A stretch of 64,000 nt of DNA from Leptolyngbya sp. SIO1E4 (GTDB lineage: Bacteria; Cyanobacteriota; Cyanobacteriia; Phormidesmidales; Phormidesmidaceae). A model generated the notes under the pieces. It worked only from the letters and a program-made list of their open reading frames with translations, made no database searches and had not been told where the DNA came from. Position numbers and translations under genes: made by a program. Position 1 is the stretch's first letter. Every line of letters begins with the position of its first letter. This document shows, piece by piece, positions 2,132 through 37,546 of the stretch. The stretch lies in contig JAAHFU020000002.1 in the NCBI GenBank assembly GCA_010672825.2, positions 1,748,001 to 1,812,000 on the forward strand, read 5' to 3'.

Positions 2132-2135
2132 CACC

Positions 2136-3542
2136 ATGGGATGGCGCAAATGGGGGGATTTTCGGTGGCGACTCGTGGCTTGGTATACGCTGCTCTCTGG
2201 CTGCACGCTGTTATCGTTCGACCTATACCTGTACTTTCAGTTTCGAGATGGGCTGCTTAAACAGGTTGACCGTGCCCTTGAGGTGGCAGCCATTCAAGCC
2301 ATTAAGAATATCGACGATGAGGTCGAAGTTTTAACGTTTGATCCGCGACGAGATGCGCCAGCCCTAGCCGCCTTATTAGATAACGCTGGAGTATCCGTAT
2401 ATTTGCTAGGCGCAGACGGTACCGTTAAGGGGCAGTTCGGTCATCTCTTAACCTCGCCCATAGAAGTCTCTGTTCTCCCAGGATTTGACACCTTAAAAAG
2501 GGCGGATGGGCGCTGGCGTGTGTACACCCAGGAAATTCTTGCCCATAACAACAGGCCTTCTGGCTGGATTAAGGTGGTGCATTCCCTGGATGAGGTTGAC
2601 GCGTCATCCGACGACCTGCGGCGACAAATGGTGTTGGGGATGCCCTTGGTGCTGGCTTTTGTCGGAGTGGGCGGGTGCTTTCTCGCCAGTCGTGCCCTCG
2701 CCCCTATTGGACAAATGACCCAAACGGCTCAGCAAGTCAGGCTCAGCGGGGATCTAACGCAGCGGATTCACTATCAAGGCTCTCAGGATGAGTTGGGACG
2801 ATTGGCCGTCCTCTTTGATGAGATGTTGGATTCCCTTCAACAAACCTTCGAACGAGAACAGCGCTTTAGTGCAGATGTTTCCCACGAGTTGCGGACGCCT
2901 TTAACGGTTTTAAAGGGACGCATCCATGTTGCCCTCAGCCAGTCTCGCACCGCAGATGACTATCGGGAAACACTGGAGGGCATTGAACCAGAAGTCGAGC
3001 GACTAATTCGCTTGAGTAATGACCTGTTGCTGTTAGCTCAGCTAGAACGGTGCAGTCAGCAGTGGCGCGCTGAAATCGTTGACTTAAGTGACTTGTTAGC
3101 GGCGATCGCAGAGCAGGTTAAGCCCCTTGCCGATCTGAAACAGGTTCACTTTAATACTGCAATTGCGCCCAAGTTAACCCTGCTTGGCCAACCTGATCAC
3201 TTAATTCGCCTATTTCTCAATCTGCTTGACAATGCGATCAAACACACCCCGCCCCAAGCCACCGTCACTCTGGGCGCCTGTCAGAAATCCGACACGATTC
3301 AAGTGACGGTGGGCGATCAGGGCCCCGGTATTGCTGCCCAGCATCTACCCCATCTGTTTGAACGCTTTTATCGAGTAGATGCTGATCGCTCTCGTCAGAC
3401 CGGGGGGGCTGGGTTGGGGCTTGCCATTGCTCAAGAAGTGGCCCACCTACACAGCGGTACCATCACTGTTCAAAGCCAGCTTCATCAGGGTACAGGGGTT
3501 ATCGTGACATTCCCGATACACGGTTCTGCAAACCAACCGTAA
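2136..3542 (+). CDS. Membrane sensor histidine kinase, partner of the adjacent regulator
   Basis: This 468-residue kinase starts at the ATG at 2136, chosen because AGGAG lies at 2121-2125, 10 bp upstream, and because it avoids overlap with the regulator. Order of domains: a transmembrane segment near the N-terminus, a periplasmic sensor region of about 130 residues, a second transmembrane segment (GMPLVLAFVGVGGCFLAS), HAMP, HisKA with the phospho-accepting histidine in SADVSHELRTP, and HATPase_c with N, G1 (DQGPGI) and G2 (GLGLAIA) boxes. It resembles RppB/NrsS-type cyanobacterial kinases. No cofactor-binding sensor domain is apparent, so the ligand is not predictable. Confidence 0.92.
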   Translation: MGWRKWGDFRWRLVAWYTLLSGCTLLSFDLYLYFQFRDGLLKQVDRALEVAAIQAIKNIDDEVEVLTFDPRRDAPALAALLDNAGVSVYLLGADGTVKGQFGHLLTSPIEVSVLPGFDTLKRADGRWRVYTQEILAHNNRPSGWIKVVHSLDEVDASSDDLRRQMVLGMPLVLAFVGVGGCFLASRALAPIGQMTQTAQQVRLSGDLTQRIHYQGSQDELGRLAVLFDEMLDSLQQTFEREQRFSADVSHELRTPLTVLKGRIHVALSQSRTADDYRETLEGIEPEVERLIRLSNDLLLLAQLERCSQQWRAEIVDLSDLLAAIAEQVKPLADLKQVHFNTAIAPKLTLLGQPDHLIRLFLNLLDNAIKHTPPQATVTLGACQKSDTIQVTVGDQGPGIAAQHLPHLFERFYRVDADRSRQTGGAGLGLAIAQEVAHLHSGTITVQSQLHQGTGVIVTFPIHGSANQP

Positions 3543-3545
3543 GAG

Positions 3546-3578
3546 AACTCTTACGAGTTTCCTACAGTTCTCTTACTG
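3546..3578. promoter_or_regulatory. Three tandem 11-bp direct repeats, likely OmpR-class operator
   Basis: Heptamers CTCTTAC, TTCCTAC and CTCTTAC begin at 3549, 3560 and 3571, exactly 11 bp apart, four bases between each. This geometry, repeated half-sites on one face of the helix, is how PhoB/OmpR-class regulators bind. It begins within 4 bp of the kinase stop codon and lies about 330 bp before the Gly-Asp protein gene. The assignment to the adjacent regulator is inference. Confidence 0.5.
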
Positions 3579-3905
3579 TCTGCGGCCTATAGTCAGGCTA
3601 GTTGTGGCGAAAGGTGCAGAGTTATGGCGAAAGGCAGAAGGCAGAAAGGAACCCTCTAAATTAGGGATTTTCAGATGTCTGAGTGGCTCACCCTTTGGCA
3701 ATAGCGATATTAGCAGCGCTGGGCTAGCGCACTGCGATTGCCCTTAGAACCTGCCCTTGCCAAAGTCTGATTATTTCCCGCTTGGGTCTTAAAGATGTTA
3801 ATCGCTCTTAGAACCAGCAAATATGCTGCCTTAACCCTAAGGTGCAGATAAACCAGATTTCAAGATTTCAAACAACATACTTAATTTTTTGATGGAGCGT
3901 GTGTC
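3579..3905. other. Long leader/intergenic region before the Gly-Asp protein gene
   Basis: It contains a GGCAGAAGGCAGAA short tandem repeat at about 3631-3646 and two similar stretches TTAGAACC-GC at about 3744-3753 and 3809-3818. A GGAG ribosome-binding site lies at 3894-3897, 8 bp before the start at 3906. No terminator separates the kinase gene from this region. Confidence 0.4.
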
Positions 3906-4397
3906 ATGCAAAGACTAATGCTGTTGGGGATTGTAGCGTCTCTATTGAGCGTGGCTGCGGCTCGGGCTATAGCTCAGCAATCTCTACAAGGAACCGAAAA
4001 TGCGGCTGAAACTTCACAATCCCTGGCGGTTTCTGATCAACCCTTATTGGAGAACGAGGCCACGACTTCTCCCTTGGCTCAGTTCGATGTTGATTTGGGG
4101 CCTATTGGCGACGGGGATGGTGACGGTGACGGCGATGGTGACGGTGACGGGGATGGCGATGGCGACGGTGACGGGGATGGCGATGGCGACGGGGATGGCG
4201 ATGGTGACGGGGATGGCGACGGTGACGGTGACGGAGATGGCGACGGGGATGGCGATGGTGACGGGGATGGCGATGGTGACGGTGACGGAGATGGCGACGG
4301 TGACGGAGATGGCGATGGTGACGGGGATGGCGATGGTGACGGAGATGGCGATGGTGACGGGGATGGCGATGGTGACGGGGATGGCGATGGCGATTAA
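3906..4397 (+). CDS. Secreted poly-(Gly-Asp) repeat protein
   Basis: This is a 163-residue protein. Residues 1-23 form a Sec-type signal peptide with a hydrophobic core ([15 protein letters not shown]) and a plausible AIA/Q cleavage site. Residues 24-67 are an ordinary spacer rich in Gln, Glu and Thr. Residues 68-163 are 48 uninterrupted Gly-Asp dipeptides, then the stop. All four glycine codons and both aspartate codons are used in the run, yet no other residue occurs, which suggests selection on the peptide. The chain would be flexible and very acidic, so it could bind calcium or other cations. The next gene encodes an aspartyl/asparaginyl hydroxylase-type enzyme, making the Asp residues candidate substrates. 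I know no characterised homologue. Confidence 0.75.
4107..4394 (+). repeat. 288-bp in-frame tandem array encoding 48 Gly-Asp units
   Basis: The basic unit is 6 bp (GGN GAY). Higher-order units of 12 and 18 bp, such as GGGGATGGCGATGGTGAC, recur towards the 3' end, showing expansion by unequal exchange or slippage. Period six keeps several other frames open, giving apparent but spurious reading frames on both strands. Confidence 0.95.
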
Positions 4398-4450
4398 TTC
4401 TGAAATGACCACAGCTGGTTGCTGATAGCGCCCTCGATTTAAGGAGATGG

Positions 4451-4490
4451 CTTCCTAGGGAGGGGGCGAGACTGACAATCCCCTAGGAAG
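4451..4490 (+). promoter_or_regulatory. Hairpin between the Gly-Asp gene and the hydroxylase gene
   Basis: CTTCCTAGGG (4451-4460) and CCCTAGGAAG (4481-4490) form a perfect 10-bp stem around a 20-nt loop. No T-run follows, so it is a poor intrinsic terminator. It might stabilise the peptide message or reduce read-through so that precursor exceeds enzyme. Confidence 0.6.
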
Positions 4491-4558
4491 TCAGCAATGG
4501 GCTGTCATCACCGCACAATCATCACCGCATAGTCATCCAATGCATTGAGAGTAATCCC

Positions 4559-6886
4559 ATGACTATTTTGACCCTTGAAGATGTGGCTATTGCCCAGATG
4601 ATTCAGGCTGCAGTAGTAGGGGATTGCAATCATTTAGAGTCTGTTGCTTGTTTAGGCCCCACCTATGTGGCTCTCCGCAGGGGGGCGCAGCTTCAGCGAG
4701 CCTATTGGGACTACAGTTTGGAACTGAGAGAAACTTGCCAAGCTATTGTCAGCGCTGCGATCGCGCCCGCCTCAACCTCAGACTCAGACACCTTAGAACT
4801 GTGTTTTACCCACCACTATCGCGCGATCACGCCTGACCAGTTTCGCCGGGCATTTGCCAAGGTTCATATTGGCATTCGTGGAATTGAGCTGCAGTACAAG
4901 GACCAGATAGCCCGCTACAGCCCGACTAGCATGATTGCTCGCAACCTGACTTTTCAGAGGGTTTTCGAGCAATTTTTGGAACAAACGTCTCTGTCCGAAA
5001 AAGCATTTTTTAAGCAAGGCACGATTCAGACGTTTGAGGCGCGCCAGGTATTGATCACCTTCAGGTCAGAGGTCACTGCGGTCACGATGCATCGAGGCAG
5101 CCAAGTTGTTCCCATCAAAACCTTGTCTAGCGACTGTTTGCAAGACATGACGACAACAATGGGGCAGTGGCTGCTGCGGCAAGTGCAGGCCGACGGGCGC
5201 CTGCCCTATAAGTACTTTCCTAGTCGGGGACGAGAGGCTACCAGCAATAACCTGATTCGGCAGTTTATGGCTACGCTTTGTCTAATTCGCTATGCCCAGC
5301 GATCCGGAAGACTCGATCATCAAGTGCTGGCAACCCACAATTTGAATTACAACCTGGCTCAGTTTTATCACTGGGAAGGTAAATTGGGGGTCGTTGAGTA
5401 TGACGGCAAGGTTAAATTAGGCGCGATCGCCCTGGCTGCCCTGGCGATTTTAGAACACGCAGATCTCCTGTCTATCGAGGTTTTTGATTCTGTTTACGGG
5501 GCACACCTGGAAGGGCTCTGCCGAACCATCGAGACGCTGTGGCAATCAGATGGGTCATTTCGAACGTTTTTAAAGCCCCGCGATCGTACCGACAACCAAA
5601 ACTTCTATCCCGGCGAGGCGCTGCTCTTTTGGGCAAGCCTCTATCAGCGCACTCAAGATCCGCAACTGTTAGCGCGCTGCTACCAAAGCGCAGCCTACTA
5701 TCGTACCTGGCACCAGCAGCAGCGCAATCCTGCTTTTGTCCCCTGGCATACCCAAGCCTATGCCCTACTCTATCGTGCAACCCAGGATCGCTACTTCCTC
5801 GACCTTATTTTTGCTCTGAATGATTGGTTGCTAGCCCGGCAACAATGGGAGGGTGCCCGCTACGATGACCTGCGGGGGCGCTTCTACGATCCCCATCATC
5901 CTGGCTATGGCCCACCCCATGCCTCTTCTACCGGGGTGTATCTAGAAGGGATAGCCGACGCCTATGCCTTAGCGGTCGAAACGGGAGAGGTTGAACGTGC
6001 CCAGCACTACCAACAGGTGATCTGGCGAGGGCTCCGAAGCATTCGACAGCTGCAATTTCGAGAATCAACTGACCTGTTCTATATTTCCCAGCGATCGCCG
6101 GTGTATGGGGCCGTTCGCACCACGGTCTACGACAACGTGATTCGAATAGACAATGTTCAGCACTGCCTCATGGCTCTCATGAAGCTGATCCAGTGCCCTG
6201 CATTTCTACACAGCACACCCAACCTTAAAGCCGCTGATATAGACCGATCTGAGCCGCCATTACCCGCCCAAGTCTTCACCAGGGCTGAAGCGACAACGCT
6301 GAAAAACTTTCGCCTGGTTGACCCCCAGGTCGATATTCGCCCCCTAATCGCTGAAATTAAAGCGAATGAACACCTCTGGCTGCATAACACTAGCCGCCAA
6401 GACAAGGTCAAGGTGCAGCGGGAAACTCACACCATCTATCTACGGAGTGCCGTGAAGCCATATCCCCCCGGAGTCACCAATGGCAATGATGTTCACGATA
6501 GTTGCCGGACACAATTAGCCCAGTATTTCCCAACGGTTATGCAGTGGCTTGAGACCTATGCCCAAGCGTCGGGCGGCGCGTTAGGGCGAGCCACTATCGT
6601 CCGACTGGCCCCTCAAGGTCGAGTTTATCGCCATATTGATCAGGGAGAATATTATCGACTCCGCGATCGCTATCACCTGGTTTTGCAAAGCTCAGTCGGC
6701 AGTCTTCTTAACGCGGGTGATGAGTGGGTTCGGATGCATCCAGGAGAGTTTTGGTGGTTTGACAACCAATCTCCCCATGAAGCTTACAACGAAGCTGACG
6801 ATTGGCGGATCCATCTCATCTTTGATTGCGATAAAAGATGGCAACAAAAATCGGGGACATCAATAACGCCCCCGATTACCCTTTAA
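4559..6886 (+). CDS. Three-part enzyme: AMMECR1-like, alpha/alpha-toroid, aspartyl/asparaginyl beta-hydroxylase
   Basis: The 775-residue protein has no signal peptide or membrane segment. Residues 1-190 resemble AMMECR1-like domains (YVALRRGAQLQ, then HIGIRGIELQYKDQIARYSP). Residues 195-520 are helical and W/Y-rich, like alpha/alpha-toroid proteins (six-hairpin glycosidases, terpenoid cyclases). Residues 630-770 match the aspartyl/asparaginyl hydroxylase family: first iron histidine H706 in DRYHLVLQ, second H740 in SPHEAYN, and 2-oxoglutarate-binding R750 in DDWRIHLIFD. Members use iron and 2-oxoglutarate with only two histidine ligands. The gene follows the poly-(Gly-Asp) gene, whose aspartates are an obvious candidate substrate. 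The C-terminal call is firm, the middle fold moderate, the N-terminal call tentative. Confidence 0.75.
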   Translation: MTILTLEDVAIAQMIQAAVVGDCNHLESVACLGPTYVALRRGAQLQRAYWDYSLELRETCQAIVSAAIAPASTSDSDTLELCFTHHYRAITPDQFRRAFAKVHIGIRGIELQYKDQIARYSPTSMIARNLTFQRVFEQFLEQTSLSEKAFFKQGTIQTFEARQVLITFRSEVTAVTMHRGSQVVPIKTLSSDCLQDMTTTMGQWLLRQVQADGRLPYKYFPSRGREATSNNLIRQFMATLCLIRYAQRSGRLDHQVLATHNLNYNLAQFYHWEGKLGVVEYDGKVKLGAIALAALAILEHADLLSIEVFDSVYGAHLEGLCRTIETLWQSDGSFRTFLKPRDRTDNQNFYPGEALLFWASLYQRTQDPQLLARCYQSAAYYRTWHQQQRNPAFVPWHTQAYALLYRATQDRYFLDLIFALNDWLLARQQWEGARYDDLRGRFYDPHHPGYGPPHASSTGVYLEGIADAYALAVETGEVERAQHYQQVIWRGLRSIRQLQFRESTDLFYISQRSPVYGAVRTTVYDNVIRIDNVQHCLMALMKLIQCPAFLHSTPNLKAADIDRSEPPLPAQVFTRAEATTLKNFRLVDPQVDIRPLIAEIKANEHLWLHNTSRQDKVKVQRETHTIYLRSAVKPYPPGVTNGNDVHDSCRTQLAQYFPTVMQWLETYAQASGGALGRATIVRLAPQGRVYRHIDQGEYYRLRDRYHLVLQSSVGSLLNAGDEWVRMHPGEFWWFDNQSPHEAYNEADDWRIHLIFDCDKRWQQKSGTSITPPITL

Positions 6887-24685: not shown

Positions 24686-27154
24686 ATGAAAATCCTTTTA
24701 GTCGAAGATGATGAAATACTGGTTGCGAATCTAGCTGCCAACTTGGCCTCCCAAAACTATCTGGTTGAATCGGCTGCAGATGGCAAACGGGGTTGGGAAT
24801 ATGCCCAAGCTACCCAGTACGACCTCATCGTCCTCGATGTGAACCTGCCTGAACTAGATGGCATTTCCCTCTGTCGACGTCTGCGTCACGCTCACTATGA
24901 AGGTGCCATTTTGCTGTTAACGGCAAAAGCAGACAGCCGTTATAAAGTTTTGGGGCTAGATGCAGGTGCCGACGACTATGTGGTGAAACCCTGCCCCATT
25001 GAGGAACTCTCCGCTCGCATCCGGGCGCTCCTGCGCCGCCCTCAAGGGGTCACGTCGACGATTCTGTATTGGGGTGCCCTACAGCTAGATCCCAGCACTT
25101 GTCAGGTGCGTTTTGCAGAGCAGGATATTTCGCTTTCCCCCAAGGAGTACGGCCTCTTAGAGTTGTTCCTCCGTAATCCACAGCGGGTTTTTAGTAGCGC
25201 CATGTTGTTGGAGCGTCTGTGGGGGTTTGATGAGATGCCGGGAGAAGAAACCATCCGGACTCATATCAAACGCCTGCGCCGCAAGCTGAAGCATGCCGGG
25301 GCCGATGAGGCCATTGAGAATATTTACGGCATGGGGTATCGACTGATGCCGCCGCCTGAGACGGAGCCTTTGCAGGCTAACACAGCTCCCGATTCTGGCG
25401 AGGCAACGACTCCGAGCGTCAATCTTGCTCCCCAGACGACAGATGACACCCCACAGATCCAATCAGGAACCGTTCCTGCCGCTATCTCTGACGCAAGAGC
25501 GGTGGCGGATGCGACCCCTGAAGCCGCGGCCAGAGCAGCGGCGGCGGCGGCGCTGGGTCAGTTCAGCGATGTCATTGCTAGCCGTCTAGCCGTGTTAGAT
25601 AAGGCGGCGATCGCACTGGACGCTGCCAGCCTATCGGATGAATTGCAGCAGCAGGCGCAGCAGGCAGCCCATAAACTGGCTGGTTCTCTTGGTATGTTTG
25701 GGTTGGCCGACGGCTCTGCCCTGAGCCGAAACATTGAGGTGAGTTTACAGCAGGAGCTGGCACAGATTGACCCCTCCCAGACCTGTGAGTGGATTCGTCA
25801 ACTGCATCAAACGCTGGAAACCATTTTCAAGGCACCCCCTCAAACCCCAGAGGTTGACCCTGTCAATGATAGTGAACAGATGATCACTCAGGCGGATAGA
25901 GCGCCCCTTGCTGCCCCCTCCCTGCCTTTGTTACTGATTATCTCGACAGATTCCACCCTTCGCATTGGGCTGGTGGCGATCGCTCAAAACACCCTGCAAA
26001 TTATTCACGCCGAAGATTTCCAACAAGCACAGCAGCAGCTTTCTCAGCAGCGCCCCGACACAATTTTGCTGGACATGGCCACGTTCCCCAACGACGAAGC
26101 CAGGCAGCCATTTTTAATTGCCATGGCCACAAACCATCCTAATTTGCCAGTGTTGGCACTGACGAGCCAAGACACTTTTGAGACCCGATTAGAAATCACC
26201 CGTTGCTGCCGCTGCACTTTTCTGCCAGGCTCCACCCCGGCGTTACAAATCTTGGATACCGCGCTCGAACTGTGTCAGGGAAAAGGGCCATCAACGCCCC
26301 ATGTCCTGGCAGTAGATGATGATCCTATCGTACTCAAGTCCCTCGAACAGCAGCTATCCCCCTGGGGTATGCAGGTAACCACTCTTGAGGATCCTCGACA
26401 GCTTTGGGATGTGCTGCCGCAGCTCAACCCTGATCTACTGATGCTAGATGTCGAAATGCCCCATGTTGAAGGCATTGAGCTTTGCCAGGTGATTCGCAGC
26501 GATCATTATTGGAGTCATCTCCCAGTTCTATTTCTGACTGCCTGTCGAGACACTGAAACTGTTCTACGACTGTACCGTGCCGGAGCAGATGACTATGTTG
26601 CCAAACCCTTCACTGACTCAGAACTGATTGCTCGGATCCTGAACCGGCTCGGTCGCAACCGCTTAACACAACAATTGGTCACGGTTGACCCCACAACAGG
26701 ATTGATGACTGAGCAACAAGCTCTCAGAGACATTCATCGCAACTTCACCCTCGCCCAGCGACATCGCCAACCCTATTGCCTGACGATGATTGCTGTGGAA
26801 TCACCTGGGTTACAAGGTAATGCAAGGCAATCGTTGCTCAATAATCAGGTTGTCTGTGAAATTGCCAAACTCCTAAGCCAGAGACTGCGCCAAGAAGACA
26901 TCGTTGCCCAGGCGGCCCCCAATGTTTTCCTATTAGGAATGTATGGAATATACAGGCAACAAGCGGAAAGACGTTTAGAGACCCTGCTTCAGGAATTACA
27001 CAAAAGTACCAGTAAAGTCTTAGGAGAAAGTGCTTTACAATTGTCTTTTAAGGTAGGGCTTGCTGCTGCACCTGAAGAGGGTGAAAATATCTCAATTCTG
27101 CGTCGATCAGCAGAAGCCAACCTCAATGAAATTATTCCTTCTTTATCATCATGA
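24686..27154 (+). CDS. Multi-domain response regulator: REC, OmpR-type DNA-binding, HPt, REC-like, REC, degenerate GGDEF
   Basis: The 822-residue protein opens as an OmpR-family regulator: receiver with D51 in LIVLDVNLPELDG, then winged helix to about residue 225 ending NIYGMGYRL. A Pro/Ala-rich linker leads to an HPt domain with H329 in AAHKLAGSLGMFGLA. Next is a receiver-like domain (about 410-530) with poor conservation, then a full receiver with D588 in LLMLDVEMP and lysine in YVAKPF. The C-terminus (about 660-822) has the DPTTGLMT start and overall plan of GGDEF domains but lacks the GGDEF signature, so it probably makes no cyclic di-GMP. It combines phosphotransfer and transcription output in one chain. 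Confidence 0.9.
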   Translation: MKILLVEDDEILVANLAANLASQNYLVESAADGKRGWEYAQATQYDLIVLDVNLPELDGISLCRRLRHAHYEGAILLLTAKADSRYKVLGLDAGADDYVVKPCPIEELSARIRALLRRPQGVTSTILYWGALQLDPSTCQVRFAEQDISLSPKEYGLLELFLRNPQRVFSSAMLLERLWGFDEMPGEETIRTHIKRLRRKLKHAGADEAIENIYGMGYRLMPPPETEPLQANTAPDSGEATTPSVNLAPQTTDDTPQIQSGTVPAAISDARAVADATPEAAARAAAAAALGQFSDVIASRLAVLDKAAIALDAASLSDELQQQAQQAAHKLAGSLGMFGLADGSALSRNIEVSLQQELAQIDPSQTCEWIRQLHQTLETIFKAPPQTPEVDPVNDSEQMITQADRAPLAAPSLPLLLIISTDSTLRIGLVAIAQNTLQIIHAEDFQQAQQQLSQQRPDTILLDMATFPNDEARQPFLIAMATNHPNLPVLALTSQDTFETRLEITRCCRCTFLPGSTPALQILDTALELCQGKGPSTPHVLAVDDDPIVLKSLEQQLSPWGMQVTTLEDPRQLWDVLPQLNPDLLMLDVEMPHVEGIELCQVIRSDHYWSHLPVLFLTACRDTETVLRLYRAGADDYVAKPFTDSELIARILNRLGRNRLTQQLVTVDPTTGLMTEQQALRDIHRNFTLAQRHRQPYCLTMIAVESPGLQGNARQSLLNNQVVCEIAKLLSQRLRQEDIVAQAAPNVFLLGMYGIYRQQAERRLETLLQELHKSTSKVLGESALQLSFKVGLAAAPEEGENISILRRSAEANLNEIIPSLSS

Positions 27155-27233: not shown

Positions 27234-27629
27234 ATGATAGATACCCGGTGTATTTTAATCATTGACGACGAACCTGATATTCGTGAGATCGCTAAATTAA
27301 GCCTAAACATCACTAAGCAATGGGCCGTTCTTACAGCAGCTTCAGGCACCGAAGGCTTTACGATTGCGGCGAATCAGAATCCAGATGCAATTTTACTGGA
27401 TGTTGTGATGCCTATCGTAGATGGTTTAGACACCCTCAAAAATCTAAAATTGCATCCACAAACGCAACATATTCCAGTTATCTTACTCACGGCGACAGCC
27501 AAGCTGGCAATGCAGTCAGATTACGTACAGTGGGGGGCTCAAGGCATTCTGATTAAGCCCTTTGACCCCGGTATTTTGGGAGAACAAATTGAGACCGCCC
27601 TGGGGTGGTCATCCTTGAAAAGTGTCTAG
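27234..27629 (+). CDS. Stand-alone CheY-like receiver protein
   Basis: The 131 residues form one receiver domain: acidic pair in ILIIDDEPD, phospho-acceptor in AILLDVVMP, threonine in VILLTAT and lysine in ILIKPFDP. There is no output domain, so it must act through protein contacts or as a phosphate sink. It lies 79 bp after the multi-domain regulator on the same strand and may be cotranscribed. Confidence 0.93.
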   Translation: MIDTRCILIIDDEPDIREIAKLSLNITKQWAVLTAASGTEGFTIAANQNPDAILLDVVMPIVDGLDTLKNLKLHPQTQHIPVILLTATAKLAMQSDYVQWGAQGILIKPFDPGILGEQIETALGWSSLKSV

Positions 27630-27817: not shown

Positions 27818-28900
27818 CTACGGAGATGAACTCGACACATGAACGCGATAGTCTTCTGTTTTTCTTGCCAGCAGCTGGGAAGCACTGCGATTATTAACGG
27901 GCCTTGAGAAGTAGTACCCTTGTACCTTGTCGCAACCGATTTTTCTCAATGATTGAAGCTGTTCTAGCGTCTCGATGCCTTCGGCAACAACATCTAACTG
28001 TAATCGAGATGCCAGCAACAGAATCGCTTCACTCACTATCCAGTTTTGACTCAGAATAAAAGACTTATCGATTTTAAGTGCATCAAAAGGAAAATCTTGA
28101 AGCCGAGCTAAAGAAGAATAGCCAGTCCCAAAATCATCAAGATGAACCTTGACTCCAATTTCTTTTAAGTTGAGGATGTTATCGAGGGCCCTATCTTGAT
28201 TTTCCATCAGGGCACTCTCAGTTATCTCTAGCTTGAGCGTTTCTGGTGTAACCCCAGTTCTTAATAAAATCTCTTGAATTTTTTGACTCAAGTCAGATTG
28301 AGATAACTGAACCGATGACAGGTTAATGCTCATCGAGATGGGTGGATCAGATGGAAATTCTCTTTGCCAGATCCACAATTGTTGACATGCTTGCTCTAAC
28401 AGAGATAGGCCTAAAGGTTGAATAAGCCCACTCTTCTCAGCCAAGGGAATGAAAACTGTGGGTGAAATCACACCCTGGTCAGGATGATTCCATCGGGCTA
28501 GCGCTTCAAATCCAATGACCCTGTCGTCCGTGATCGAAATGATAGGTTGATAATCTAGAAAAAATTCCTGGCGGCTTAAAGCACAGACAAGATCATTCCC
28601 TAACTTCAACCTTTTCATGTCCTCTAAAGACAGCATTGAGGGGATAGCTTCAGACCGATGCTCTATCGCATTTGCTAAACGAGTTAAACGATTGGCGGCA
28701 CTAATAGCAATGCCTAGCAGCCTTTCCCCATCTTCAGAAAAGTTGGCAAACTGCTCGTTGTGGAGAATTTTGAGGACTCCCTGAATGCTTGTCAGAGGTG
28801 TGCGGAGCTCATGACAGACAAGGTTTGATATGTCCTCTATCTGCTCAAGTTGAGCTAGGGTACAATCTGGGATTAATGGACGAGAAGAAGAATGCACCAT
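27818..28900 (-). CDS. HisKA-EAL fusion, probable cyclic di-GMP phosphodiesterase
   Basis: Residues 20-85 resemble a HisKA dimerisation domain, with VCHELRTPLTSIQGVLKIL carrying the histidine, but no ATPase domain follows. Instead residues 100-345 form an EAL domain with all catalytic marks: EALARW, the asparagine of NLSS, EITES, DDFGTGYSSLARL, the lysine of KIDKSF and VAEGIE. This predicts hydrolysis of cyclic di-GMP. The HisKA part could accept phosphate from another kinase in the cluster or simply dimerise the enzyme. It converges with the regulator genes. Confidence 0.9.
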   Translation of the reverse strand: MVHSSSRPLIPDCTLAQLEQIEDISNLVCHELRTPLTSIQGVLKILHNEQFANFSEDGERLLGIAISAANRLTRLANAIEHRSEAIPSMLSLEDMKRLKLGNDLVCALSRQEFFLDYQPIISITDDRVIGFEALARWNHPDQGVISPTVFIPLAEKSGLIQPLGLSLLEQACQQLWIWQREFPSDPPISMSINLSSVQLSQSDLSQKIQEILLRTGVTPETLKLEITESALMENQDRALDNILNLKEIGVKVHLDDFGTGYSSLARLQDFPFDALKIDKSFILSQNWIVSEAILLLASRLQLDVVAEGIETLEQLQSLRKIGCDKVQGYYFSRPVNNRSASQLLARKTEDYRVHVSSSSP

Positions 28901-28997: not shown

Positions 28998-29285
28998 TTA
29001 AAGAGGTAAAACGTTCCCCTTCGTAAGGTACCGATCATTAGCCTTTGAAGAGAAGGATCTCAAACTCTTCCACAAAGTATACCCAGACGTCGTCACCGTA
29101 ATGCATACCTGATTGCCTGCTTCCGAGAGCTGGTAACCATATTCGTAAGCATCTAAGCGCTTGTCGGGACCGTAAATCTTGAGCTGTGCGTAAAGTTCAT
29201 TTTGGTAAGCCATGCCGACTTTAATACCTTCCTGCCAGTACTTAAATGAACTGACGAGTTCTTCTGGAATAACGATTGGGAGCAT
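28998..29285 (-). CDS. Conserved hypothetical protein
   Basis: I start it at the ATG complementary to 29283-29285, giving 95 residues beginning MLPIVIPEELVSSFKYWQEG. A further upstream start adds nine residues. The sequence is soluble, with helical openings and an ITVTTSGYTLWKSL end. I recall similar small cyanobacterial proteins without assigned function. It lies 97 bp upstream of the HisKA-EAL gene on the same strand. No motif suggests an activity. Confidence 0.6.
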   Translation of the reverse strand: MLPIVIPEELVSSFKYWQEGIKVGMAYQNELYAQLKIYGPDKRLDAYEYGYQLSEAGNQVCITVTTSGYTLWKSLRSFSSKANDRYLTKGNVLPL

Positions 29286-29739
29286 AAGTACGTAATGCAA
29301 CAAACTGGACAATAGGGGAGCTCTAAGCGTCCATAAGCTTTAGCACATACCGTATAGGAGGAATGTGACAGGCGTGTGACGCTTCAGATGACTCTGACTA
29401 AATCACCAACCTTGCCTTGACTCCACGCTGCCTGTTGGTCAAACCTGTGCTGCTGAGCCTGAAGAACTTCAAGCGGGTTCTGCCCTTGTCGCAATGGTTT
29501 TAGCCCCTGGCTCCCAAAATTCTGTCTGATAACTCTTTGTAGAACCCTATCTGGTGTCCTCAGCTATCAGTTTTCTGTAAGCCTTCGTTATCTTGAGATT
29601 CCGTACCTACATATCGCTTTAACATTAGTTTTATTAACGAAGATGCACTCCATAAATTATTTTTTTTGATTGGATGTTAATGCCCTAATCTTTGTTAACA
29701 CCCTTTTATCATCGCGGTTCCCTAATATTGAGGAATTTC

Positions 29740-29967: not shown

Positions 29968-30204
29968 CTGTTTGTCAGGGCAGCACTGCTAGTAAACAGT
30001 TGCTATCCTGACAGATTAATGTCCTTGATCTCTTAGACCTCAGGCCAGCCTCTGAGTATTGCTGCTTTGCTGGGCATCCTAGAGGGAGAATGGGTGATAC
30101 CGGTCAAAATGCCGGATGCTTTCGGAGTTTGGCCCATAACGACAATTTGAGCCATTACATTTCGGGTTCCCTGAGTCCGTGCCGACGTAGTTGTTTTGAC
30201 CCTA

Positions 30205-33200
30205 ATGCCTGACAGCAACCCCATGAGTCCTAATGCTGAGCCTGCTTCCAAGACAATTCTCATTGTCGATGATACGCCGGCCAACTTACGGTTGCTAGCG
30301 AGTCTGTTGTCTACTCATGGCTATGTCGTGCGTCTAGCTCCTAACGGTAACCTGGCGCTGATGGCCATTCAGCATGATTTGCCTGATTTAATCTTGCTGG
30401 ACATTCGGATGCCCAAAATGGATGGTTACGAAGTGTGTCAGCGCCTGAAGGCAGACGATCTCACCCGTGAAATCCCTGTCATTTTCTTAAGCGCCTTACA
30501 GGAAGGGAGCGATAAAGCGAAAGCATTCGAAGTGGGGGGAGCTGACTACATCACCAAACCGTTTCAAACAGAAGAGGTGATTGCTCGGGTGCGGCATCAG
30601 CTGCAATTGCTAGATCTGCAACAACAGCTCCAGCAACAACACCAATCTCTTCTGGCAAAAAATCAGCAGCTCGAACAAGAAATTCGCGATCGCACTCGCG
30701 TTGAGGCTGAGCTGAGTCAAGAAAAGACCCTCCTGCGCAGCGTTATAGATGTTATCCCAGATTTCATTTTTTACAAGAATCAAGAAGGTAGATATCTCGT
30801 TTGGAACCAAGCCTTCGAAGCCTTTACCGGGCTCGCTCCTGCAGAGATTCTCCATCAAACAGATGCCGACTTATTTTCGCCAGAGGCCGCCGAGTGGATT
30901 CAGGCCAAAGATCAACAAGTACTGACAACTCAATCGTCTCTCCGCTATGAGGAATGGGCCACCTTTTCTAACCAGGCTCGGCGATTACTTGATATCTACA
31001 AAATTCCAGTTCAAGGCTCTGAAGGAAATCTCTTGGGGCTGCTCGGTGTCTGTCGCGATATCACTGAGCGCAAGGCCAATGAACAAACCCTGGTTAGAAC
31101 ATCCCAAATCTTGGCAGCGTTTAGTGATAACCTCAAACAGCTGCATCGTCTGAATATCAGACGCTTTGACAATTTTGAGAACCTGGCAGAGGCTTATCTC
31201 ACAACTGGCTGCCAGGTTATGAATTTTTCAGGTGGCGTCATCGGGTTCTTAGAAGACGACAACTATGTGGTTGCTGCAATTCGGTCTCAGCAAGAAGGCC
31301 TATATCCCAACTTCCACTGCAACGTAGACGAGACCTTCTGCAGCGAGGTTATCAAAACTCAACAGACGATCACCTATGCCCATATCGGTCATCTCCCAGC
31401 GCTAAAGGATCATCCCTTTTACCAGGCATTTAAGTGGGAGTCCCTGATCAGCACCCCGATTTTTGTGGATGGAGACGTCTATGGCAGCCTCTGCTTCTTT
31501 TCTCACAATGCCAGAGTCAACGAGTTTGATCGCTACGAAAAAGAAATCGTTGAGTTAATTGCCCAGGGCATCGGCAAATTTATCAGTTCTGATCGTATTG
31601 AACAGCAACGTCAGCAGGCTGAGACGGCCTTAAGAGAAAGCGAGGCACGTTTTCGACAGTTGACAGAGCGAATTGAAAACGTTTTTTGGATTCTGGAACC
31701 TTCGCAACAGCGATTTACCTATGTTTCTCCTGCCTACGAAACTATCTGGGGTCGCCCCTGTGAAGCGGTTTTGCAAAATCCTCATCTTTGGGAAACGGCA
31801 ATTTATCCAGAAGATACGGATCGCATGGCAGCTATCCGAACTGGGGATCAAAGTTATGACGAAGAATATCGTATTGTTCGTCCTGATGGCAGCATTCGCT
31901 GGATACGCGATCGGGCCTTTCCCATTGCGGATACAGCGGGGCAAGTCTACCGGATTGTAGGTATTGCAGAAGATATCACAGAACTCAAGCGCCAGGAGCA
32001 AGCCCTGCGACTCATCTTTGAAGGCACCGCTGCCAAAACCGGGAGTGATTTCTTTCATTCACTCGTGCGTTATCTCGCAGAGGTTCTGCAGGTTCAGCAT
32101 GTCGTTGTGGGTCAACAAATCGAGGATAACCGGATGCGTGCCCTTGCCTTTTGGCGAAAAGGGCGCTTTTTAAATGATCACGAATACCCGCTATCAGGGA
32201 CACCCTGTCAGCGGGTGCTCGAAGATCAAATTGTCTTCCATGATAAAGACGTACAGCTGTATTATCCCCATGATCAAGACTTAGCAGACTGGGGGATTAC
32301 CAGCTATTTAGGGGTTCCCTTGGCCAATGCCAGCAATAAAGTGATTGGGCATTTAGCCATTCTGGATGAACGGCCAATGCCAGTCGGTCAATTCCGGGAA
32401 TTGACCTTGAAGATTTTTGCAGCTCGTGCCGGGGCAGAGTTGGAACGGCAAACCTTTGAACATGAAATTCAACGGGCGCGAAAAGTGGCGGATGCCGCTA
32501 ACCGAGCGAAAAGTGAATTTTTAGCCAACATCAGTCATGAGTTACGCACGCCGTTGAATGCCATTATGGGGTTTACCCAGTTGATTTTGGGAGAAGGGCG
32601 TATTGATGCCAAAACCCATGAATATTTAGACATTGTTAATCGCAGTGGCGATCATCTGCTGACTCTGATTAACGATGTTTTAGAAATGTCGAAGATAGAG
32701 GCGGGTAAAGTGGCGCTCCGCACCCAGCCGTTTGATCTATTTGCTTTGTTTCAGAGCCTCGAAGATATGTTTTCTTTGCGGGCTAAAGCAAAAAATTTAC
32801 GCCTCAGTCTTGATTGCGCTTCAGACATTCCTCGCTATGTTGAAGCCGATGAAAGTAAGCTGCGCCAAGTTTTAATTAATCTCTTGGGGAATGCTGTGAA
32901 GTTTACCCAGAGTGGACACGTTAGGCTAAGCGTGGCCCATGTCCCCAAATACGAGACTTCTCCTGCAGCGCCAGCGGCAACCACACCTCCTGCCCAATTA
33001 TCTTCGATGACTTTGCTGTTTCGGGTAGAAGACACTGGAGTCGGTATTACTTCTGAAGATCTCAAAACGGTCTTTGATCCGTTTATTCAAACTACGGCAG
33101 GCCATCAGTCCCAGGAGGGAACAGGATTAGGGTTACCCATCAGTCAACGTTTTGTGCAACTAATGGGAGGCACGATTCAAGTTCAGACAACACCTGGGGA

Positions 33201-33951
33201 AGGCTCTACGTTTGCGTTTGAAATTGCGGTACTGCCGGTAGTTCCCCCCGGCAGTAGCCCCTCAACGCTATCTCATCAAATAGTTAAGGCGTTAGTGCCT
33301 GGTCAGCCCCAATATCGTTTGCTGGTCGTGGAAGATCATCGGGCTAATCAATTATTACTGGTGCGGATGCTAGAGACTGTGGGGTTTGCTGTCAAGGTCG
33401 CAGAGGATGGCTTGGCAGCGGTAGAACAGGCCAAAGCCTGGCGGCCCCATTTAATCTGGATGGACATTCAAATGCCCAGAATGAATGGTTATGAAGCAAC
33501 TCGTGAGATTAAATCGGCTGGGCTGCAGCCAGTGCCTGTTATTATTGCTCTCACTGCCAGTGCTTTTGAAGAAGAGCGGGCTCGGGTATTAGCTGCAGGG
33601 TGCGACGATTTCGTTCGTAAGCCATTCCAGAGCAAGCAGATTTTCCAGAAGATGGCTCACTATTTGCCGGTACGCTATCTTTACAGAGCCAACTCAGACC
33701 CTACCGCTAATGGTCTGAATGGCACCCCATCTACCACCGCGATCGCAGATAACCTTACCGCAGCCCTCCGAGCCGTCCCTCCAGCGTTGATTCAGGCATT
33801 AAAGCAGGCTGCCATCAAAGGGTCCGATGAGCAGATTCTGCAGTTAATTGCAGCGTTACCCCCTGAGCACTCAGCCTTAGCGCGAATATTAACCACTTAT
33901 GCCCAGAATTTTCAGTTCGACTCCATTCTTGAGATGCTGCAATGTGAATGA
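30205..33951 (+). CDS. Soluble hybrid histidine kinase: REC, PAS, GAF, PAS, GAF, HisKA, HATPase, REC, helical module
   Basis: Start is the ATG at 30205 (1248 residues). An ATG at 30223 is also possible and a TTG at 30196 less so. The order is receiver with aspartate near 66 (LILLDIRMPKMDGYE), coiled coil, PAS (near 170-290), GAF-like (310-460), PAS (475-590, with VFWILEP), GAF-like (600-755), HisKA with H778 (ANISHELRTP), HATPase_c (EDTGVGI), second receiver with aspartate near 1088 (LIWMDIQMP), and terminal helical module PALIQALKQAAIKGSD. The GAF domains lack an obvious bilin-binding cysteine context. It is followed 45 bp later by another kinase gene. Confidence 0.92.
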   Translation: MPDSNPMSPNAEPASKTILIVDDTPANLRLLASLLSTHGYVVRLAPNGNLALMAIQHDLPDLILLDIRMPKMDGYEVCQRLKADDLTREIPVIFLSALQEGSDKAKAFEVGGADYITKPFQTEEVIARVRHQLQLLDLQQQLQQQHQSLLAKNQQLEQEIRDRTRVEAELSQEKTLLRSVIDVIPDFIFYKNQEGRYLVWNQAFEAFTGLAPAEILHQTDADLFSPEAAEWIQAKDQQVLTTQSSLRYEEWATFSNQARRLLDIYKIPVQGSEGNLLGLLGVCRDITERKANEQTLVRTSQILAAFSDNLKQLHRLNIRRFDNFENLAEAYLTTGCQVMNFSGGVIGFLEDDNYVVAAIRSQQEGLYPNFHCNVDETFCSEVIKTQQTITYAHIGHLPALKDHPFYQAFKWESLISTPIFVDGDVYGSLCFFSHNARVNEFDRYEKEIVELIAQGIGKFISSDRIEQQRQQAETALRESEARFRQLTERIENVFWILEPSQQRFTYVSPAYETIWGRPCEAVLQNPHLWETAIYPEDTDRMAAIRTGDQSYDEEYRIVRPDGSIRWIRDRAFPIADTAGQVYRIVGIAEDITELKRQEQALRLIFEGTAAKTGSDFFHSLVRYLAEVLQVQHVVVGQQIEDNRMRALAFWRKGRFLNDHEYPLSGTPCQRVLEDQIVFHDKDVQLYYPHDQDLADWGITSYLGVPLANASNKVIGHLAILDERPMPVGQFRELTLKIFAARAGAELERQTFEHEIQRARKVADAANRAKSEFLANISHELRTPLNAIMGFTQLILGEGRIDAKTHEYLDIVNRSGDHLLTLINDVLEMSKIEAGKVALRTQPFDLFALFQSLEDMFSLRAKAKNLRLSLDCASDIPRYVEADESKLRQVLINLLGNAVKFTQSGHVRLSVAHVPKYETSPAAPAATTPPAQLSSMTLLFRVEDTGVGITSEDLKTVFDPFIQTTAGHQSQEGTGLGLPISQRFVQLMGGTIQVQTTPGEGSTFAFEIAVLPVVPPGSSPSTLSHQIVKALVPGQPQYRLLVVEDHRANQLLLVRMLETVGFAVKVAEDGLAAVEQAKAWRPHLIWMDIQMPRMNGYEATREIKSAGLQPVPVIIALTASAFEEERARVLAAGCDDFVRKPFQSKQIFQKMAHYLPVRYLYRANSDPTANGLNGTPSTTAIADNLTAALRAVPPALIQALKQAAIKGSDEQILQLIAALPPEHSALARILTTYAQNFQFDSILEMLQCE

Positions 33952-33996: not shown

Positions 33997-36474
33997 TTGC
34001 GCCCATGCAAACAAACTCAGGCGCCCTTTTACCCCTTTGATGTTGTCAAGACTGTTGTGAAAGCTTCTCCCTCCTCTCCCCAACCATCTCACCTCCGTTC
34101 CAGACGGATACCGCTATCACTTATCTTAAGGATTCCCTACACCCTACAGATTGTGGTGGCGGTAGGGTTAACGGGATGGTTCTCTCTACGGAATGGGCAG
34201 ATTGCGGTTAGCAAATTAGCGCTAGAACTGCGGGAAGAAACGGCTACCCAAGTTACCCAGCATATTGAGACCCAGCTCACGATCGCCCACAAACTGAATC
34301 AGGCAAATTTAGCTGCGATTGAATTAGGGCTGCTACCGCTGGATGATTTTGACACCATGGGCCAGCTATTTTGGCGGCAAATGCAAATTTATGGGGTTGA
34401 CTACATTAATTTTGCCAACGAAACGGGTGAGTTCATTGGGGTAGAACGCACCGATGACAATCAGCTGCTCATCAATGAAACTCGTGCCCCAGCAATTGAT
34501 TACATGACCATTTATGAGCCTGATGACCAGGGCCGCCGCACCCTAGGCCGGGTGGAATGGGCACCAGATCCTATCCAAGCAGAGGGATGGTATGCCGATG
34601 CAGCAGAGGCAGGTCGTCCAGTCTGGAGTGATCTTTACCAATGGGACGATCAGCCCGAGGTTCTTTCAATCTCTGCCAGTTATCCCGTCTATGACGACAG
34701 TCAACAATTGGTTGGGGTGATTGGGGTTGACCTGATTGTGTCCCAAATGGGCGCTTTTTTACGGGATTTAAAGGGCAATCACTCTGGAGCCATTTTTATT
34801 ATGGAGCAGAGTGGTTTACTGGTTGCCAGCTCTAGCACCTCCCCCACTTTTCAACTCAAGGGGGAAACTGCCCAGCGCCTACCTGCTGCCCAGAGTGAAG
34901 ATCCGCTGATTCAGGCAACGACGCTGCGTCTTCAAGCAGAATTCCCGGCGTTGTCTGAGATTCCTGATCAGACCCCACTAACGTTTCACCTGCATGGAAT
35001 TCAGCAGTATGTCAATGTGACGTCTTACCAAGATGAGGTGGGTTTGGATTGGTTGGTGGTTGTGGTCGTGCCAGAAACGGAGTTCATGGCACAAATCAAC
35101 CAAAATACCCGCATTACAGTGTTAATGTGCTTGCTGGCACTAGTGATCGCAATCCTGATGGGCTTGTTGATATCTCGTCAAGTTAACCAGCCCCTCCGGC
35201 GACTTGTGGAAGCCAGTCAGGCGATCGCCCAGGGTAATCTGGATCACACCATTCAAAGGCCCCACATCCAAGAATTTGAAGTACTGGCTCAAGCATTCAA
35301 CCAAATGGCAGCCCAACTCAAAGCCTCCTTCACCGATATGGAAAATCGAGTTGAGCAGCGCACGGCTGAGTTGGCAGGTGCCAAGACCCAGGCCGAAGCT
35401 GCTAATCGGGCTAAAACTCGGTTTCTGACGAACACCAGCCATGAACTGCGTACTCCCCTCAACATCATTCTTGGGTTTGTGCAGGTGATGCAGCATGATC
35501 AAACGCTGCAGCCTCAGCACCAAGAAACCCTCAAACGCATTCGTCGCAGTGGCCGGTACCTACTGTCTCTGATTAACAATATTTTGGCAGCCACCAAGCT
35601 AGAGGCCAATGAGGTTAGCCTTTATCACGTCTATTTTGATCTGTGGATACTGCTGCATGATTTACAGGTGAGTCTGCATCCCGAAGCAGAAAAGAAGCAG
35701 CTTACCCTGGTTTTGCCCACAACCACTGAGCTCCCTCGCCATATCTTTGCCGATGAAAGTAAACTGCGGCAAGTTTTAATGAGCCTGCTGGATAATGGCA
35801 TCAAATTTACTGATGCTGGACACGTTGAACTTCGTGTTTGGGTAACCTATGAGGACTCCCAGGAGGCAAGCTCAGCCCGCCAGGGGAGACTACATTTTGA
35901 AATAGAAGATTCTGGCCCTGGCCTATCGTTGGCTCCTACTGAACAGCTAGGGGCTCCCTTTGTTCACCCAATCGATGCCAGCCGTACCACCGAGCAGGGC
36001 ATGGGCCTAGGGCTGCATATTAGCCGTGAATATGTCCGCCTTATGGGGGGCTGTTTAACCTATAAAAGTACCCTGAAACAGGGGACGTGTTTTCAGTTTG
36101 CGATTCCTATCGTCGTTGCGCCCCCGCTGGATAGGGGGCCTTTGTCAGACGGAGCATCCCCAATTCTTCCCTCCGAGATCGACACGGCGATATCCATGGC
36201 AGATGCCACAGCCTGGGACAGTTTAGTGCATGACCTCGCTAAGATGCCCTCAGACTGGATTGAACAGGTTGAAGAAGCCGCCCTGAGAGGTGCGGATTCT
36301 ATGTTGAATCAACTCATTGCGCAATTACCCGAAGAGGACACTCCCCTTGCAAACTCCTTGAAGAAGGCAACTCTGAATTTCCGATTTGATACCATCCTTA
36401 AGCTTGTTGAAGGAGTGCGCCATGAAGTATTCCCTAAAGAATCAGCCGAAGAAAGAGATTCTAGTTGTAGATGA
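33997..36474 (+). CDS. Membrane histidine kinase with dCache sensor and helical module
   Basis: The protein has a first transmembrane segment (LQIVVAVGLTGWFSL), a dCache-type extracytoplasmic sensor of about 300 residues (YINFANETGEFIGV, PVYDDSQQLVGVIGVDL), a second transmembrane segment (ITVLMCLLALVIAILMGLL), HAMP, HisKA with H482 (TNTSHELRTP), HATPase_c (EDSGPGLSL, GMGLGLHIS) and the terminal module PSDWIEQVEEAALRGAD. There is no receiver. The start is uncertain: no in-frame ATG precedes the first transmembrane segment, only a TTG at 33997 and a GTG at 34057. Its end overlaps the next gene by 53 bp, so the two are probably coupled. Confidence 0.88.
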   Translation: MRPCKQTQAPFYPFDVVKTVVKASPSSPQPSHLRSRRIPLSLILRIPYTLQIVVAVGLTGWFSLRNGQIAVSKLALELREETATQVTQHIETQLTIAHKLNQANLAAIELGLLPLDDFDTMGQLFWRQMQIYGVDYINFANETGEFIGVERTDDNQLLINETRAPAIDYMTIYEPDDQGRRTLGRVEWAPDPIQAEGWYADAAEAGRPVWSDLYQWDDQPEVLSISASYPVYDDSQQLVGVIGVDLIVSQMGAFLRDLKGNHSGAIFIMEQSGLLVASSSTSPTFQLKGETAQRLPAAQSEDPLIQATTLRLQAEFPALSEIPDQTPLTFHLHGIQQYVNVTSYQDEVGLDWLVVVVVPETEFMAQINQNTRITVLMCLLALVIAILMGLLISRQVNQPLRRLVEASQAIAQGNLDHTIQRPHIQEFEVLAQAFNQMAAQLKASFTDMENRVEQRTAELAGAKTQAEAANRAKTRFLTNTSHELRTPLNIILGFVQVMQHDQTLQPQHQETLKRIRRSGRYLLSLINNILAATKLEANEVSLYHVYFDLWILLHDLQVSLHPEAEKKQLTLVLPTTTELPRHIFADESKLRQVLMSLLDNGIKFTDAGHVELRVWVTYEDSQEASSARQGRLHFEIEDSGPGLSLAPTEQLGAPFVHPIDASRTTEQGMGLGLHISREYVRLMGGCLTYKSTLKQGTCFQFAIPIVVAPPLDRGPLSDGASPILPSEIDTAISMADATAWDSLVHDLAKMPSDWIEQVEEAALRGADSMLNQLIAQLPEEDTPLANSLKKATLNFRFDTILKLVEGVRHEVFPKESAEERDSSCR

Positions 36475-37546
36475 TACCCCTGACAATTTGCGGTTATTGT
36501 CGGCCATTCTTACCCAGCAAAACTATGAAGTGCGCAAAGCTTTAAACAGTACACGCGCGATCGCTTCGGTCAAAGCCGATGCCCCCGATCTCATTTTGCT
36601 CGACATCAAAATGCCGGAAATGAACGGCTATGAAGTCTGTACAGCCCTGCAGCGAGATCCGGAGACCCAAGAAATTCCCATCATTTTCATCAGTGCTCTA
36701 GATGATGCTTTAGATAAAGTCAGGGCTTTCTCTGTGGGCGGCGCCGATTACATTACTAAGCCCTTTCAAGAAGCAGAGGTCTTAGCTCGCATTGAGCATC
36801 AGCTCCATATTCGGGAGCTTCAGAGTCAGCTGAAGGCACAAAATGAAGAATTGGCTCGGTCGAATCGAGAGCTTGAGCAATTCGCCCATATCGTTTCCCA
36901 TGATCTACAGCAGCCACTGCAAAGCATCATTGGTTATGCCAGAATTATTGCCCTGCAAAGCTCAGAGCTATTAGACGCCACGGGTAATACCTATTTAGGA
37001 AACATTCTAGAGGCAGGCAATCGGATGCAGCGGCTGATCACAGATTTGCTGAGCTATGCTCAAATCGGAAAAGACAGTGAAGCCTTCTCTCGGGTGGATT
37101 GCAACCAGGTGCTGGCCCAAGCCTTAAGTAATCTTGATTCGGCCCTCAAGGAAAGTCATGCTGATCTGAACTATCCTGATTTGCCGACCCTTTTGGGTAA
37201 TGAAACCCAGCTAATACAGCTATTTCAAAATCTCATCGGCAACGCCATCAAGTTCTCTTGTCCTGAGATTCCTCCCCAAATTACCATCGCCCTCTCGCAA
37301 CCCGACGAGGCGTATTGGCTATTCGAAATCCATGACAATGGCATTGGCATCCCCCCCGACAGCCTCAAACAAATCTTCAAAAGCTTTCAAAGGCTTAACT
37401 CTCCTGAGCAGTATCCGGGTACCGGTATTGGGCTTGCAACCTGCCAAAAAATTGTCAAGAACCATGGTGGAGAGATTTGGGCCGAGTCTCAACAAAATGT
37501 GGGCACTTCCTTCTACTTCAAATTGCCGACTCAAGATCTGTCATGA
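36422..37546 (+). CDS. Receiver-histidine kinase (REC-HisKA-HATPase)
   Basis: The 375-residue protein starts at the ATG at 36422, with GGAG 10-15 bp upstream, inside the end of the previous gene. Residues 8-125 are a receiver with D61 (LILLDIKMPEMNGYE) and YITKPF. A short coiled coil leads to a HisKA of the phytochrome-kinase type, SHDLQQPLQSIIGYA with H160, then HATPase_c (HDNGIGIPPD, GTGIGLATCQKIV). It has no sensor domain, so its kinase is likely switched by phosphorylation of its own receiver, making it a relay node downstream of the neighbouring kinases. Confidence 0.93.
   Translation: MKYSLKNQPKKEILVVDDTPDNLRLLSAILTQQNYEVRKALNSTRAIASVKADAPDLILLDIKMPEMNGYEVCTALQRDPETQEIPIIFISALDDALDKVRAFSVGGADYITKPFQEAEVLARIEHQLHIRELQSQLKAQNEELARSNRELEQFAHIVSHDLQQPLQSIIGYARIIALQSSELLDATGNTYLGNILEAGNRMQRLITDLLSYAQIGKDSEAFSRVDCNQVLAQALSNLDSALKESHADLNYPDLPTLLGNETQLIQLFQNLIGNAIKFSCPEIPPQITIALSQPDEAYWLFEIHDNGIGIPPDSLKQIFKSFQRLNSPEQYPGTGIGLATCQKIVKNHGGEIWAESQQNVGTSFYFKLPTQDLS

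Follow-up and report, generated by a model that had tools for sequence, protein, structure and literature searches.

Spo0B and ChpT are DHp-type bundles without working kinase activity that meet receiver domains, and both keep a degenerate ATPase domain, lack an enzymatic output and need their phosphoacceptor His. Two-component control of EAL phosphodiesterases is known from RocR and PvrR, in which a receiver is fused to the EAL domain (REC-EAL). In Caulobacterales and Rhizobiales, EAL proteins with HisKA, HATPase, Hpt and HAMP domains are found; there HisKA clusters with HATPase, and the passages of that study concerned with these domains describe no HisKA lacking an ATPase partner (PMC9756655). 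Closest in function is DivL of Caulobacter crescentus, a Tyr-bearing DHp that senses phosphorylated DivK (DivK~P) and that, in the sections of the source dealing with it, has no phosphatase activity and stabilises DivK~P; binding of DivK~P is unchanged in DivL Y550H, so that docking need not hinge on which residue occupies the His position (PMC4211667). Here we analyse a stretch of 64,000 nucleotides from the cyanobacterium Leptolyngbya sp. SIO1E4 (assembly GCA_010672825.2, contig JAAHFU020000002.1, positions 1,748,001 to 1,812,000 of the forward strand; hereafter the window), in which one gene (27818..28900, minus strand) encodes a HisKA domain joined directly to an EAL domain with no ATPase domain. 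By sequence and by analogy with DivL, we give a probability of about one half to the reading that this HisKA part is a DHp module that senses a phosphorylated CheY-type receiver (CheY~P) in trans and thereby controls the phosphodiesterase. No description of the HisKA-EAL architecture was found in the titles, abstract openings and passages of the open-access literature searched, and it may be described elsewhere.

The protein has 360 residues from an ATG start. Pfam places the HisKA domain at residues 28-79 (28664..28819, minus strand; 38.3 bits against a cut-off of 26.9), which is predicted to form a two-helix hairpin, and the EAL domain at residues 104-334 (27899..28591, minus strand; 237.8 bits against a curated cut-off of 31.3). 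Beyond these two, the Pfam scan gives no family at E ≤ 1, HATPase and Response_reg being among those unmatched, and without a HATPase match the protein is not filed as a histidine kinase. The HisKA box CHELRTPL occupies residues 29-36, with the phosphoacceptor His30 present (codon at 28811-28813, minus strand). Only about 24 residues lie between HisKA and EAL, and three alignments to solved EAL proteins, MorA and PA0575/RmcA included, begin at query residues 91, 85 and 52; this stretch is thus the usual lead-in of an EAL domain and is too short to hold an ATPase domain. A degenerate ATPase hidden there was considered and rejected on these grounds. All EAL motifs are present (FEALARW, N193, EITE, DDFGTGYSSL, KID, AEGIE and QG), as are E132, N193, E225, E228, D255, D256, K276, E307, E310 and Q327, ten residues that we take to bind metal or substrate, and from its domain score and motifs the protein should be a phosphodiesterase of cyclic di-GMP (c-di-GMP). 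The initial annotation, made from the letters alone, had described an intact histidine box, a missing ATPase domain and a complete set of EAL catalytic residues, and is borne out on each count.

An AlphaFold2 model built on 28 alignment rows shows helices at residues 12-49 and 56-89, with block means of pLDDT of about 46-75 (low to moderate), followed by a helix at residues 92-109 and a confident EAL barrel. In a Foldseek search against the PDB, the EAL model best matches MorA, BifA and other EAL proteins, with TM scores of about 0.9 by target length for MorA and BifA. MorA, BifA and RmcA share the EAL fold and motifs with the window protein and are among its best sequence or structure matches; their inputs, as far as we know their make-up, are not HisKA domains. 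Eleven photosystem reaction-centre matches mark the source genome (8.2 Mb) as cyanobacterial. It holds 87 HisKA matches, five of which, the window protein included, are not followed by a HATPase_c match within 1.2 kb. The other four were rejected as companions, all ending by eye (unscored) in an ATPase-like C-terminal region, so that, by sequence, the window protein is the only HisKA protein of its genome in which the ATPase region is swapped for a different catalytic domain.

The architecture recurs widely enough to form a family. The first 104 residues were searched against 386 genomes of the phylum, and a ten-row alignment against 388 genomes of the class. The class search yields 63 full-length matches at E ≤ 2e-29, while the background starts at 1.4e-20 and runs downwards, a sharp split. 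The family thus comprises 67 members in 66 loci, 63 from 54 of the 388 class genomes and four from genomes of the phylum sample; such counts are lower bounds, up to 11 candidates per genome being scored in the class search, and two short frames (G583:C290, 149 residues, E 2.1e-29; G534:C435, 82 residues, E 4.7e-26) are left out. Member frames, read from stop to stop and hence possibly too long at the N-terminus, span 327-426 residues. A chance junction or a truncated kinase gene was rejected as an explanation, given the recurrence of the junction in 67 proteins. The EAL motifs are nearly invariant across the aligned members, and each of 11 catalytic or motif columns shows zero or one parsimony change. 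In one genome two HisKA-EAL frames stand in tandem (L206, 9821-10942 and 10903-12066, plus strand). As regards other phyla, a scan with six short peptide patterns (best 80 of 100 loci) returned EAL relatives; the seven with a match reaching into the HisKA part were rejected, being GGDEF-EAL proteins without HisKA. A scan of this kind does not show absence elsewhere.

The phosphoacceptor itself is less constrained than most of the box around it. The His30 position holds H in 61 of the 67 members, Y in four, D in one and Q in one. Other HisKA domains of the same loci have His in 83 of 83 cases (replaced in 6/67 against 0/83, p = 0.007, with rows that are not independent); these controls are frames of at least 250 residues with a HisKA match, HATPase not being checked for each. 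On a quick tree of 72 rows with several long branches, His and non-His states change at least four times while the EAL motifs are kept. His30 undergoes five parsimony changes and ranks 14th of 60 HisKA columns, and within the box E31 (1), L36 (1), R33 (2), P35 (2) and L32 (3) change less. Non-His relatives retain most of the HisKA box as well as the EAL motifs, and some adjoin a CheY. Judged from these sequences, phosphate transfer to His cannot be a general principle of the family, since Tyr, Asp or Gln stands in its place in relatives, including some encoded next to a CheY; phosphate on the His is possible in the majority that keep it.

A candidate partner is encoded close by. The stand-alone CheY-type receiver at 27234..27629 (plus strand; Pfam Response_reg) is convergent with the HisKA-EAL gene and belongs to a subfamily, here c0, that lies within 6 kb of 46 of the 67 members (E < 1e-35), window included, or of 44 when the weakest matches (L130 and L221) are set aside. 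In 40 of 67 cases it is upstream on the same strand within four genes, and five loci show the succession full kinase (cluster c8), CheY, HisKA-EAL, two of these having an extra small frame before HisKA-EAL. The phospho-Asp is present in 49 of 50 aligned c0 CheYs. The exception, at L130 (13085-13630, plus strand), is a receiver from which the phospho-Asp and some further receiver residues have been lost, situated 4.5 kb from a Tyr-bearing HisKA-EAL gene on the other strand.

Likeness within the source genome points the same way. The genome has five c0 receivers before a gap in scores, and each of its remaining 11 EAL genes is either on a different contig or separated from them by over 260 kb. 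When its HisKA domains are ranked by likeness to that of the window protein, four come out on top, again followed by a gap, and three of these belong to full kinases whose genes overlap a CheY paralogue or stop about 100 bp or less short of it; the chance of finding all three CheY-linked kinases in the top four is about 4e-5 (86 other HisKA domains). Around the fourth, the stretch inspected contains no such adjoining CheY. One CheY-kinase pair (L265) consists of a phytochrome-like kinase with GAF, PHY, PAS, HisKA and HATPase domains (2132-4771, minus strand) and then a c0 CheY (1604-2029, minus strand), and brings to mind the cyanobacterial phytochrome kinase Cph1 with its single-domain receiver Rcp1.

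The residues that govern partner choice were compared at +7, +8, +11, +12 and +15 from the His, numbered on the assumption that the phosphoacceptor of EnvZ is His243. The EnvZ counterparts of +7, +8, +12 and +15 are coevolving specificity residues, and joint changes at +7, +11 and +12 switch EnvZ to the partner of RstB (PMC2991266). At the five positions the HisKA-EAL family reads mostly A/T-S-G-A-L, and seven of the eight kinases beside a c0 CheY read T-S-G/T-A/S-L/I. At +12 an aromatic residue occurs in none of the 67 HisKA-EAL proteins but in 58 of the 67 other HisKA domains from these loci whose motif could be read (16 of the 83 controls, having no readable motif, are left out of this count). 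The fairest cases are kinases that came as neighbours, namely four near the HisKA-GGDEF-EAL genes described below (L229, L230, L231 and L234) and the five of cluster c8; of the latter, directly before CheY, three are readable, as T-S-G-S-L or A-S-G-S-L. This pattern suggests to us a single class of interaction, with a docking surface for CheY that kinase and HisKA-EAL protein would have in common.

Strong partial matches of the class search led to a sister architecture, HisKA-GGDEF-EAL, in six of the 388 class genomes. These proteins have 558-581 residues and no ATPase domain, and all six carry Tyr in place of His (SYELRTPL or SYELRAPL) in a box otherwise intact or nearly so; the alignment used to find them was built on five Tyr-bearing ones and may favour such forms. 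Five of the proteins lie at L229 (6006-7697), L230 (13742-15415), L231 (5918-7600), L232 (6248-7990) and L234 (9653-11377). At L240 (G553) a HisKA-GGDEF-EAL gene is split over two overlapping frames, either in reality or by a sequencing frameshift. In three of five loci with wider surroundings (L229, L231 and L234) the gene directly follows an Asp-bearing c0 CheY, whose frame at L234 is short (108 residues).

What the sequences show directly is the HisKA-EAL architecture and its conservation, the genes that recur around it, the resemblance at partner-choice positions and the loss of His in some relatives; on top of these observations the following mechanism may be proposed. A DHp bundle without a kinase would serve as input module and probably dimerises the enzyme. 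Full kinases elsewhere would phosphorylate the CheY protein (27234-27629), CheY~P would dock on the bundle in a phosphorylation-dependent manner, and docking would be passed through the connecting helix into the EAL domain, altering its activity in a direction that cannot be predicted. The signal would then run opposite to its usual course, with the response regulator informing the DHp, as DivK informs DivL in Caulobacter. In members keeping the His, the window protein among them, CheY~P may in addition exchange phosphate with it. The likeness to DivL extends to the Tyr at the His position, found in four of the 67 members and in the six HisKA-GGDEF-EAL proteins, whereas DivL has PAS domains and acts in a kinase pathway, and the HisKA-EAL proteins have an EAL enzyme as output. 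As in RocR and PvrR, an EAL phosphodiesterase would be under two-component control, but here the CheY is separate and the DHp is what is fused to EAL, with no Response_reg match in the window protein. The initial annotation had likewise linked two-component signalling to c-di-GMP breakdown, by phosphate received on the HisKA part and without a receiver; the link is likely to hold, through the CheY-like protein at 27234, while phosphate on His as its general basis falls with the Tyr, Asp and Gln relatives, and the idea of doing without a receiver probably misleads, since this separate protein is likely to be the receiver.

Several observations weigh against sensing of CheY~P in the manner of DivL. 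The window protein has His where DivL has Tyr, so that the protein at hand does not itself carry a non-phosphorylatable residue, and DivL keeps an ATPase-like domain that HisKA-EAL proteins lack. The DHp part of the structural model is of low to moderate confidence. The CheY gene of the window is convergent with the HisKA-EAL gene rather than upstream of it, 21 of the 67 loci have no c0-like CheY within 6 kb (six of the 21 hold less than 4 kb upstream), and the neighbourhood counts are not phylogenetically independent. A fourth CheY paralogue of the source genome stands after a CAP/RTX-type protein instead of a kinase. The eighth kinase beside a c0 CheY (L266) falls outside the search pattern and by eye reads N-S-G-A-L, with Asn at +7 and Ala at +12, and the comparison is partly circular, some kinases having been fetched for the likeness of their HisKA or CheY to those of the window. 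Lastly, the His is kept in 61 of 67 members, and T34, counterpart of a phosphatase residue, in 59 of 67, which leaves room for catalysis by the box. A c0 CheY is near 44 of 61 His members against two of six non-His members (p = 0.07, rows not independent), or 43 of 61 against one of six at a stricter cut-off chosen later (p = 0.016), which leans towards a phosphorelay and against a purely His-free principle.

In such a phosphorelay, the view taken in the initial annotation and one for which Spo0B and ChpT are precedents, His30 would be an acceptor phosphorylated by back-transfer from CheY~P, by an Hpt domain or by another kinase whose ATPase domain acts in trans; the phosphorylated His would then switch the EAL domain. 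Retention of the His over large divergence and the bias in CheY neighbourhood speak for it, as does the adjacent Glu, kept in 66 of 67 members and needed for the kinase chemistry of HisKA proteins (PMC3510030); yet five of the six members without His retain this Glu as well. The at least four changes between His and non-His with the EAL motifs kept, together with the Tyr in all six HisKA-GGDEF-EAL proteins, three of the five with readable surroundings standing directly after an Asp-bearing CheY, make a phosphorelay rather unlikely as the explanation.

Alternatively, the HisKA box might dephosphorylate CheY~P as a phosphatase or sink, with the EAL domain coupled to that activity or merely placed by it. 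The DHp domain of EnvZ alone reportedly acts as a phosphatase. Thr or Asn at the place of T34 is the phosphatase residue of HisKA kinases (PMC3510030). T34 is, however, not among the most constrained columns, with six changes and H, A, S or I in eight of the 67 members, and DivL, the nearest functional analogue, has no phosphatase activity, which leaves this an improbable account. It is more doubtful still that the HisKA part is a mere dimerisation element left over from a kinase and without a receiver partner, an idea that would suit the members lacking His and the loci with no c0 CheY nearby. EAL domains do often work as dimers, but the box around the His ranks with the most strongly conserved stretches of the HisKA domain, the +12 position follows the CheY-linked kinases and the CheY neighbourhood recurs, and a pure dimeriser needs none of these three. 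Reception of CheY~P by the DHp module is the reading retained, at the strength given above.

Further genes surround this pair. Directly upstream of the HisKA-EAL gene, across a gap of 97 bp, a small conserved protein (c4) is encoded at 28998..29312 (minus strand; the likely true start is the ATG at 29285). Such a gene lies within 3 kb of 31 of the 67 members. Members of the wider c4 family turn up in 133 of the 388 genomes; 27 of the 28 best-scoring matches have a HisKA-EAL gene no more than 3 kb away, a tally that rises to just 30 when the top 54 are considered. None of three members scanned matches a Pfam family (for the one in the window, at E ≤ 1), a PDB search yields nothing better than E 0.35, and a single-sequence model reaches a pLDDT of 45. 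Before the CheY gene, a protein of REC-wHTH-Hpt-REC-REC-GGDEF-like make-up (24686..27154, plus strand) shows three Response_reg matches, Trans_reg_C, Hpt and a weak GGDEF match; its cluster (c3, multi-receiver Hpt proteins) is found within four genes of 29 of the 67 members. The same fraction applies to the hybrid kinases of cluster c2, represented here at 30196..33951 (plus strand) with REC, PAS, GAF, HisKA, HATPase and REC domains. This gene is followed by a dCache-HAMP-HisKA-HATPase kinase (33997..36474, plus strand; cluster c1) and, by domain scan, a REC-HisKA-HATPase protein (36386..37546, plus strand). An FHA-GGDEF protein (c5; three scanned) is encoded directly downstream of the HisKA-EAL gene in 13 loci, and its longer forms have an EAL domain of their own. 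Elsewhere in the window, the product of 62284-63936 (minus strand) combines an N-terminal match to a response-regulator model with a thioredoxin-reductase-like flavoprotein.

Extended to both architectures, the argument suggests, tentatively and at somewhat less than even odds, a cyanobacterial class of HisKA-EAL and HisKA-GGDEF-EAL proteins in which a kinase-less DHp would read CheY~P produced by separate kinases and set c-di-GMP turnover, with c4 as a possible subunit or modulator and the His dispensable. DivL is the known case in which a kinase core has become a receiver sensor. If the proposal is true, a family that lacks the ATPase part altogether, and in which His-to-Tyr versions occur naturally, would demonstrate that no more than the DHp is needed for this role, and hydrolysis of c-di-GMP against CheY~P would provide a simple biochemical read-out. 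It would also suggest how the stand-alone CheY proteins of Cyanobacteria could reach c-di-GMP metabolism.
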